A stretch of DNA of 64,000 nt, from assembly GCA_034190875.2 (NCBI GenBank), contig CM067349.1, positions 35,829,317-35,893,316 on the forward strand. Reading direction: 5' to 3'. The notes beneath the pieces are model-generated. The model was not told the DNA's origin. It searched no databases and saw only the letters and a list, made by a program, of their open reading frames with translations. Of the stretch, positions 39,501-42,500 are shown piece by piece. This DNA comes from Urechis unicinctus (lineage: Eukaryota; Annelida; Polychaeta; Xenopneusta; Urechidae). Position 1 is the stretch's first letter. The number at the start of each line of letters is the position of its first letter. A program made the position numbers and the translations under genes.

Positions 39501-42500
39501 GTGGAGTTGGGCAGGTTACGGTTGTTGTTATAGGGAGGTAGATTGTGATGCGTTTTGGACGATGGCGATGACAGGTAGCCATCTTGTCGGGCGTGCGAGA
39601 AGTTGTCGACCGAGTGACTGTGCGGGGTGTTGCGGAAGCCGTCAATGGCGCTGCGTTCCTCCATGATGGCTTCGCGGGTGGTGGCACCAACGGTACGCCG
39701 AGCATAGCGCTTACTGGGAGATCTGCACAGGTACACACCACAAAGTCTCAATGAAAACGCCACCAGAACAGGTCGGCAGAGGGGTTTTATGTGCGTCTAC
39801 AAGTACTGGATAACAGAGGGTTAATACGAATGTCAACAAGTATAGTATAACAGAGGGTTAATAAGAACAAGTACTGTATAACAGAGTGTAAGTATGAACG
39901 ACTACAAGTACTGTATAACAGATGGTTAATAAGAACAATTGCAGTATAACAGAGGGTTATAAGAACGTCTACAAGTATTGGATAACAGAGGGTAAATAAG
40001 AACTTCAACAAGTACTGGATAACAGAGGGTTAATAAGAACGTGAACAAGTATTGGATAACAGAGGGTTAATAAGAACGTGAACAAGTATTGGATAACAGA
40101 GGGTTAACAAGAACGTGAACAAGTATTGGATAACAGAGGGTTAATAAGAACGTGAACAAGTATTGGATAACAGAGGGTTAATAAGAACGTGAACAAGTAT
40201 TGGATAACAGAGGGTTAACAAGAACGTGAACAAGTATTGGATAACAGAGGGTTAACAAGAACGTGAACAAGTATTGGATAACAGAGGGTTAACAAGAACG
40301 TGAACAAGTATTGGATAACAGAGGGTTAACAAGAACGTGAACAAGTATTGGATAACAGAGGGTTAACAAGAACGTGAACAAGTGCAGTATAACAGAGGGT
40401 TAAGGCGAAGGTCATCAAATATCTTAAGACAGCGTCATTAAATAATCCATGACATCAGCGATGTAACAGGGTGAAAAAGTACAAGCAAATCTAGATCCCC
40501 CATTAGGGGCATGACATGAGTGACGAAATCACTGGAAGAGTTACAGTACAATATACACAAGAGCTGAAGATATCCGCACAGGCATACAGTCAAAATGAAA
40601 TCCCGAGAAAGCCTCTACCGGTAGTAAACCGAATCACGATCAACAAGCATTACAAATCATACACAACCTAGGATGTGACACGCCTCCATGATAGCAACGT
40701 CTGACAGAGAATCAGCGTTATCATCTTGATAAGGTCGTGTCGTTATTATCAGTATCAGTTCAAGTCAAATGAGATAAACACTCTCCATCCACTCACCTGA
40801 ACGAAAAAGTGCGCACCTTCACTTTAAACTTAGATACGGTGGTTCCCATGGTGACGTAGTTCACTGACCTCAGCAGCTTACAGACGCCGATCATCTATTA
40901 TTCGCCGAGTAGGTGGCCAGCAAAAAGCTGTCACACAGCTGGCTAATCGCACGGTGTCCTGTATATCCGCTCAACATGAGTCAGTCTGACAGGTGTAAAG
41001 TGCAATACATACGCTCCTATCCACAAGCAATCAGCTTTCATCTTAAATGAAGCTGCCCTATTTTAGGTGTACGGCGTTACATACAGAAGCGGAGGGTCAC
41101 ATCCGTCCACCTGATCTCGGCAATGCCTCGCTCCTTCAAAGTAAGCAAAACACTTGGCCCTAGCTAGGACGAGTTGACAACAAGCGCTCCATTCATCACG
41201 CATTTTTTGCGCCGCTAGACTAACCGTGTCAAGCCGCGTGATGGTCTGCAGTGAGGGCGCGCGAGAGCGAGGACAAGGCTAGCACAAGACGTTTACTGAT
41301 GGCGTCCGCGCGGGCTACAAACAACGCGGCGCCGCGCGACGGGCTCACCTAACGCGCCGAGAGCCCACGGCCAGACACACACCATATCTTATCAAATCCA
41401 CAGCAATATGATAGCAATTAGAAAAAGGAATTTTCATGAGGCGAATGTTAAGGAGGGGGATGTCTGCAATGACACCGGCCGGGAAGGCCCCACAGGCACT
41501 GCCACGTGATCCAATGAGAAACGCAGCATTTCCCTTCTGAGACGTCAATCCAATTGCCCGGCCCGAATTATCGCTGCCTGATCACTAAATATGTAATTTC
41601 GCTTGGCACGTTTGACACCTTTTGTGGACTCAGCCTCTCCAATTCAGACTGGCGCCAGATGGGGAAAAAAATTCCACCTTTGCAAAGATTGCCACTATGA
41701 TGCTGCAATGAGAGTCACGCTATGACGACGATTATCTGCGAGCCATGAGGTCTGATATGATTAGGGGATAGGTTCTGGTCGGTACTCCGTATCCGGCAGG
41801 CATCCGACGCGACCCTCGAAGACTGGCGAGTTTTGGAGGGGAAAACAGCGCAAAACCTTGTCGGACAAGGTGATGTTTTGAGAGGCGGTGTGAGGTCGTG
41901 AGGATCTGTGTTCAGGGAGGCGAAGAGGTTGAGGGGGACTGACAAAGGCTGATACACAGCTAGGAAGATGTAATACCTCCTCAACACAGTCTCCAACAGA
42001 CAGCTCCCGGCGGTATCTCACGGTCAACTCACACGCTCAGTGTATTGATAGAGACAGATACATGGTCAGCCAGTCCACGCTAACTAACACAATCCCGCAA
42101 TGCTGCCACTCCTGTAGTATCCACATGCCCGGCGGCCCGCGTACACACCCCGTAGGCAACACCACGATCGTCCAAGTGCTACGCGGACAAGGAGCAAGGT
42201 GCACTAGAATATCCAAGTCAATCCTTACCCAGACACACACGTAAATTAGACGTGTTCAAAGTAACAACAGCTTCTGTTGCAAAGCAAACTCTAATCAGAG
42301 AGGTGATCCGTGGATAGCGACCGAGGTCCACAACATCAATTCTCATGAACGGCGATTAATGACTCCTACGTGCGATCTATAGCTACTTGAGCTAAGCACA
42401 TACCCCACAGCGCGCGCGACGAGCGGGATGTATTATGCACGGTCAGTTAAACATCTGCGACTGCGGATCATTATGGTAATCTCGGGTTTATCCGACCACT

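Follow-up and report, generated by a model that had tools for sequence, protein, structure and literature searches.

A candidate alternative first exon in the PTPN4/Ptpmeg orthologue of Urechis unicinctus, predicted to encode a FERM-less phosphatase with a myristoylation-type N-terminus

Within an intron of the PTPN4/Ptpmeg gene of Urechis unicinctus lies a short open reading frame, running on the minus strand from an ATG at 40849 to a splice donor at 40797 (positions are those of the window, the whole stretch of 64,000 nucleotides that was analysed). Whether this frame is the coding part of a real alternative first exon of the gene we judge to be evenly balanced, and the myristoylation of its product is a prediction only. 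We set out below the structure of the gene and of the candidate exon, how often such a site would arise by chance, and what the homologues of other animals say about it.

The host gene

Exon-by-exon tblastn, using the PTPN4 proteins of the chiton Liolophura (P0001) and of Owenia (P0024) as queries, finds FERM, then PDZ, then classical PTP domains in one gene, and by this sequence comparison the minus-strand gene of the window is the PTPN4/Ptpmeg orthologue. The matches run from 58790 to 49615 for FERM, 45760-45692 for the exon adjacent to it, 39722-39129 for the linker exon, 28929-24837 for PDZ and 23916-21159 for the phosphatase, where VHC closes an exon ending near 22403 and SAGIGRTG opens the next (21747). 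The parts of the gene to which we refer are as follows.

51783..58790, minus strand: further exons of the FERM domain in the canonical isoform (MSVKLGASSGSYNVRASEL...), delimited by the tblastn matches, with exon ends partly fixed
49613..49773, minus strand: last FERM exon, ending FRY AG|gtatgt in phase 2 (tblastn, junction comparison)
45692..45760, minus strand: canonical exon SGRTEHQTMEESKRRARVERTFTR, with phase 2 at either end; the candidate exon would stand in its place (tblastn, junction comparison)
39129..39722, minus strand: linker exon of the canonical isoform, SPSKRYARR..., to whose acceptor the candidate exon would be spliced (tblastn, phase)
38697..38828, minus strand: linker segment EGGFLDHQ..., corresponding to the DGGF segment in the linker of spiralians, ends approximate (comparison)
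24837..28929, minus strand: PDZ exons, kept in the predicted isoform (tblastn)
21159..23916, minus strand: tyrosine phosphatase exons, kept in the predicted isoform (tblastn)

In a maximum-likelihood tree of 35 PTPN4 rows, the window falls into a group of six (100/99) with Ridgeia, Paralvinella and three more rows, its five companions being P0002, P0007, P0015, P0033 and P0035, a placement that points to an annelid. Owenia, another annelid, is kept out of the group by a weak branch, and the branch of Paralvinella is long. A single PTPN3/PTPN4 orthologue is usual among invertebrates, and the main PDZ exon has a single match in the whole genome (1.19 Gb), which makes this gene the only orthologue as judged by the PDZ exon. 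A paralogue carrying a second copy was considered and set aside, as the genome search with the PDZ exon found none.

The canonical exon at 45760-45692 ends CACACG|gtaaca, in phase 2, and so joins the linker exon as VERTFTR|SPSKRYARR. In P0009, P0014, P0016-P0020, P0023, P0030 and P0052 the exon with GRTE is missing, and FRY is joined straight to RSPSK. Elsewhere in the window, an open frame at 6827-6465 of the minus strand contains text that by eye is reverse-transcriptase-like (VIDYRGVNAV), perhaps the remnant of a retroelement.

Structure of the candidate exon

40797..40849, minus strand: candidate alternative first coding exon, ATG GGA ACC ACC GTA TCT AAG ... TTC AG, encoding MGTTVSKFKVKVRTFSF(R), phase 2
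40791..40799, minus strand: consensus splice donor CAG|GTGAGT (sequence, donor score)

The ATG at 40849 stands in the context ACCATGG and opens 53 coding bases, of which the last is 40797 (TTC AG|GTGAGT). Since the linker exon starts A|TCT CCC AGT AAG after CTGTGCAG, it requires a donor of phase 2, and the predicted join of 40797 to 39722 reads KVRTFSFR|SPSKRYARR; a start codon, an open frame and a donor whose phase fits the next exon, as expected in sequence of an alternative first exon, are all found here. Scored with a generic metazoan matrix, the candidate donor reaches 12.5, while 19 donors of the same gene, chosen by eye, range from 4.1 to 12.7. The string CAGGTGAGT has two occurrences on the minus strand of the window, at 40797 and 11266, and two in the 480-kb background (12% N). 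A sequence-only reading of this DNA had pointed to the strong ATG context, the strong phase-2 donor and its fit to the exon at 39722, all of which the sequence and the scoring confirm. It had also drawn the exon as 40797 to 40894, of which the donor end stands; the ATG of MGTTVSK is that at 40849, and 40894 is a separate, weak in-frame ATG.

The PROSITE N-myristoylation pattern is G-{EDRKHPFYW}-x(2)-[STAGCN]-{P}, and MGTTVSK fits it directly after the predicted initiator Met, so that the start named earlier as a substrate type of N-myristoyltransferase (NMT) holds under the strict form of the pattern. The predicted N-terminus carries a net charge of +5 in 18 residues and of +9 in 28. Its tail, VRTFSFR|SPSK, rebuilds the canonical R-x-F element, a resemblance that was spotted post hoc. 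Among 199 distinct homologues listed (the best 120 of 5008 and the best 120 of 4438 matches), R-x-F precedes R|SPSK in 76 of the 99 proteins with an SPSK-type junction, and the printed examples span spiders and molluscs to mammals.

Two other origins of the exon were considered and rejected. It does not appear to be a duplicate of the canonical exon, which it resembles in the tail peptide only; the DNA of the two exons was compared by eye. Nor is it derived from a repeat, since a search with 701 bases gave one DNA match in the genome. A 37-bp tandem repeat of 16.7 copies occupies 39799-40403, in the stretch that separates the candidate donor from its acceptor.

The upstream region

41161..41400, no strand assigned: block with the highest CpG density in the window, a candidate for an internal promoter (CpG count)
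40850..40894, minus strand: in-frame upstream extension from the weak ATG at 40894 (MIGVCKLLRSVNYVT), with an in-frame stop before it at 40897-40895 (sequence)

The CpG-rich block that had been placed upstream of the exon can now be located 310-550 bp from the ATG at 40849, and its 27 CpG per 200 bp are the maximum of the window. None of 10,341 background windows, drawn from sequence of lower GC, reaches 25 CpG per 200 bp. Another block rich in CpG, with 25 per 200 bp, lies in a later intron, at 36961-37280.

The ATG at 40894, in the weak context TAG ATG A, lies 15 codons upstream of 40849 with no intervening stop. Translation from it would yield MIGVCKLLRSVNYVTMGTTVSK... and would make the Gly of MGTTVSK internal, so that this residue could not be myristoylated. 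Eight ATGs at 41203-40977 also precede 40849, of which three fall within the CpG block. Were transcription to begin in the block, these eight and the ATG at 40894 would hinder the use of 40849 in an unspliced leader; they would be bypassed if the transcript began nearer the exon or if its leader were spliced. An initiator-like pentamer, TCAGT, is present at 40867-40863, between the two in-frame ATGs, and says little because such pentamers are common here (1.7 per kb).

Chance expectation

How often a site of this kind would occur by chance was estimated in two ways. As background we took 480 kb of the same genome in 24 stretches (20 spread and 4 beside the window), reading both strands; it contains 12% N, and its GC content is about 0.39 (without N) as against 0.46 in the introns of the gene. 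We also simulated 146 Mb of intron with an order-3 model made from the gene's own introns. The combination of a strong Kozak context, a donor score of at least 11 and phase 2 occurs once in the background, and never there with the NMT motif. In the simulated intron it occurs 227 times, 13 of them with the NMT motif; none of the 227 has MGxxx[ST][KR], and none the tail R[TSVI]F[ST]. With the Kozak rule dropped, MGxxx[ST][KR] occurs once in the 146 Mb.

The expected number of sites combining Kozak context, donor, phase 2 and NMT motif is thus 0.0005 in the 6-kb intron that contains the site, 0.003 in the 37 kb that we take as the total intron of the gene and 0.011 in both strands of the window; if the NMT motif is ignored, it rises to about 0.06 in the 37 kb and 0.2 in both strands of the window. 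Among the 67 phase-2 sites with a donor score of at least 6 on the minus strand of the window, the candidate is the sole bearer of the NMT motif. The site therefore exceeds ordinary coincidence. It is important to note that the cut-offs of the simulation were set after the site had been seen, and that the site was picked from the whole 64-kb window, so that the true surprise is smaller than the simulated figures suggest.

FERM-less isoforms and the search for the exon in other animals

None of the 199 listed homologues, which include the five that group with the window in the tree (one protein model each), has a 6-mer in common with the candidate peptide. A search with the predicted residues 1-48 gave three candidates, none of them scored; such a search is insensitive, since P0001, which holds SPSKRYARRTVG, was not recovered either. 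Fewer than 60 residues stand upstream of the SPSK-type junction in one of the 99 listed proteins that have it, the tardigrade P0121, in which GRTE is retained, and a short unrelated start directly before the junction was found in none of the 99.

FERM-less PTPN4 isoforms as such are common, and already known in protein databases: about 55 of the 199 listed homologues are FERM-less by pattern, some of them being partial models, and C. elegans ptp-1 isoform c is among them. (P0193, with the start of its PDZ missing, was left out of the 55.) The pre-PDZ peptide RQ[CYF]...F[GS][LV] is present in 8 of these 55 rows strictly and in 12 loosely, the bearers being molluscs and the annelids Paralvinella and Ridgeia, and the loose pattern fits 10 of 13 proteins checked. 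This peptide is absent from the candidate exon at 40.8 kb. It does have a counterpart elsewhere in the gene:

29999..31087, minus strand: 363-residue open frame whose first ATG is 31084, a candidate first exon for a further FERM-less isoform (pre-PDZ motif)

The motif GQMLLRQYDVDRQGCVFGLYGKQP, at 30220-30149, matches Ridgeia P0035 weakly (E 0.03, 46% over 24 residues), and no donor was found for the exon of this frame. We think that another FERM-less start of the same gene probably lies here. On sequence, the better-conserved FERM-less start appears to be that at 31 kb, and this counts against the candidate exon.

Five of the 55 FERM-less rows start with MG, three fit a loose NMT pattern and one (P0087) the strict pattern, so that lipid-anchored starts are not typical of these proteins. 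Two FERM-less PTPN4 proteins start with MGKAPSLICGSDGGF (P0045) and MGKSASLICGSDRGF (Solemya P0091); P0045 is probably from an oyster, as 98% of it is identical to P0014, which has an oyster-type junction. That two bivalve records have an NMT-like start on a FERM-less PTPN4 speaks in favour of the candidate exon. P0087, crustacean-like by its PDZ, starts MGGVSNGS, and Branchiostoma P0193 starts MGFSVSK. In the FERM-less tick models P0099 and P0108, text of the type MGN[NS]ESADN.RRRP lies inside longer predicted N-termini. With Lys or Phe at position 3, P0045, P0091 and P0193 fall outside the strict pattern. The amphioxus start was considered as a homologue of MGTTVSK and kept as a lead only, the two being alike in MG..VSK alone and the model lacking half of the PDZ. 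As a whole, the NMT-like starts of other animals are leads, not proof.

One could go further and suppose that a lipid-anchored, FERM-less PTPN4 is a recurrent strategy of animals, reached through independent internal promoters and with constitutive or phospho-switched anchoring, a generalisation that we think rather doubtful. The recurrence would span annelid MGTTVSK, bivalve MGKxxSLICGS, crustacean MGGVSN, tick MGN.ESADN.RRR and amphioxus MGFSVSK; N-myristoyl starts would be placed on the PDZ-phosphatase core, regulated targeting by FERM would be given up, and the annelid exon would in addition rebuild R-x-F-x-R|SPSK.

Competing explanations and the preferred reading

There are several ways of explaining the site. 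It could be a pseudo-exon, in which a strong donor, an ATG in Kozak context and a hexapeptide of the NMT type have met by chance in an intron and are never transcribed as an exon, and to this we give a substantial, if minority, share of the probability. The lack of detectable conservation among the 199 listed homologues, the open-ended look through 64 kb from which the site came, the ATGs upstream of 40849 and the expectation for sites without the motif (about 0.06 and 0.2, as above) all speak for it, but the expectation with the NMT motif is only 0.003 in the gene's intron and 0.011 in the window, and the R-x-F tail and the CpG block agree with a real exon too, though these were noticed post hoc. 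A real first exon translated from 40894, or from elsewhere, would give a FERM-less protein that is not myristoylated. That upstream ATG is in frame and no stop separates it from 40849, but its context is weak against ACCATGG and leaky scanning would still reach 40849; we consider this outcome very improbable.

The exon might also be an internal one with an upstream acceptor, spliced between 45692 and 39722, in one of two forms:

40797..40985, minus strand: 189-nt internal exon, acceptor ACACCTGTCAG (score 2.5), with in-frame stops (acceptor scoring)
40797..40868, minus strand: 72-nt stop-free in-frame cassette exon, poor GAG acceptor (score -5.7) (acceptor scoring)

Its in-frame stops would make the 189-nt form a poison exon or, if the transcript came from a promoter lying further upstream, an untranslated exon at the 5' end; the 72-nt cassette would be the coding variant. 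Both neighbouring exons are in phase 2, the acceptor at 40985 scores slightly above the median of the gene's 22 acceptors, and extra coding sequence is present at the same junction in Haliotis P0025 (LEPSSVTRGGLSTDIS), in Branchiostoma (NPFFR in P0064, not in P0076), in the spider Stegodyphus P0075 and in the tick Ixodes P0083. Because these animals carry such sequence, some alternative exon in the candidate's intron is credible. Against an internal exon, the 189-nt form meets a stop ahead of MGTTVSK, and the Kozak context and NMT motif are left unexplained. The only acceptor that allows a stop-free in-frame cassette reading, 40868, is outscored by 20 of the 22 that we assigned to the gene, and we hold a coding cassette exon from this poor GAG acceptor to be unlikely. 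We regard an internal exon of either form as improbable.

If 40849-40797 is indeed part of an alternative first exon, the transcript would start from an internal promoter, within the CpG-rich block at 41161-41400 or close to it, and the exon would, from its phase and donor strength, be spliced from 40797 to 39722. Translation would begin at the strong ATG at 40849 and give MGTTVSKFKVKVRTFSFRSPSKRYARR... ahead of the linker, the PDZ and the phosphatase, with FERM missing. Disorder is to be expected in the N-terminus and the linker. N-myristoyltransferase, whose motif is present, would modify Gly2, and the myristate, the charge of +9 in the first 28 residues and the interspersed Phe residues would together hold the enzyme at membranes in place of FERM targeting. 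The FSF in basic context resembles MARCKS, which may point to release by phosphorylation. Such a product would parallel the active, FERM-less human PTPN4 produced by calpain, except that it would be encoded as such and held at membranes.

Comparison with known systems

The earlier remark that no such isoform is known for PTPN3/4 holds for the lipid-anchored form within our search of open-access papers; FERM-less forms in general are common (about 55 of 199 listed). Our search of open-access papers found no myristoylated PTPN3/4: in the excerpts of PMC7793860, PMC3448659, PMC6590314, PMC7189327 and PMC3510515, 'myristoyl' refers to proteins other than PTPN4/PTPH1, and the excerpted text of PMC9900141 does not describe PTPN3/4 as myristoylated. 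PTPN4 is described as bound to membranes through FERM and activated upon its removal. A FERM-less form encoded with a lipid anchor of its own would, if real, uncouple activation from losing the membrane. Animals would then seem to have found this solution through internal promoters, perhaps more than once.

Compared with the canonical FERM-PDZ-PTP protein (PTPN4/PTPN3, that is PTP-MEG1/PTPH1 or Ptpmeg), the candidate isoform comes from the same gene and has the PDZ, the PTP and the SPSKRYARR linker exon in common, but would carry an 18-residue NMT-type N-terminus in place of FERM. The MARCKS-type myristoyl-electrostatic switch is released by phosphorylation; the candidate is like it in its myristate motif and in an FSF in basic context, a resemblance only. 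DUSP22 is a DUSP, with neither FERM nor PDZ. As the excerpts of PMC7793860 describe it, DUSP22 is a phosphatase anchored to the membrane by an N-terminal myristate, in which it resembles the predicted isoform. Human PTPN4, according to the excerpted text of PMC5554198, is activated by calpain cleavage, its active form being the PDZ-PTP, and is cytoplasmic without FERM; a new anchor would matter for this reason. The calpain-activated enzyme thus shares with the predicted isoform a FERM-less PDZ and phosphatase, but is proteolytic in origin and cytoplasmic, whereas the predicted isoform would be encoded and membrane-held.

The annotated FERM-less PTPN4 proteins of invertebrates (Haliotis X13, Pecten X2, Paralvinella, Ridgeia, C. 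elegans ptp-1 isoform c) have likewise lost FERM, and several of them resemble, as far as protein sequences can tell, the products of internal first exons; the candidate differs from the 52 of 55 FERM-less rows among the 199 listed that lack even a loose NMT start. Closest in kind are the bivalve starts MGK[AS][PA]SLICGS (P0045, P0091), with a short first peptide on a FERM-less protein, Gly2 and Ser6, a possible lipid anchor and a possible palmitoyl Cys, which could make a myristoyl plus palmitoyl anchor. These differ from the candidate in sequence, in being apparently joined before the DGGF linker and in having Lys at position 3. A lipid anchor on the known FERM-less kind of PTPN4 would be an unusual variation, and one that may recur in other phyla.
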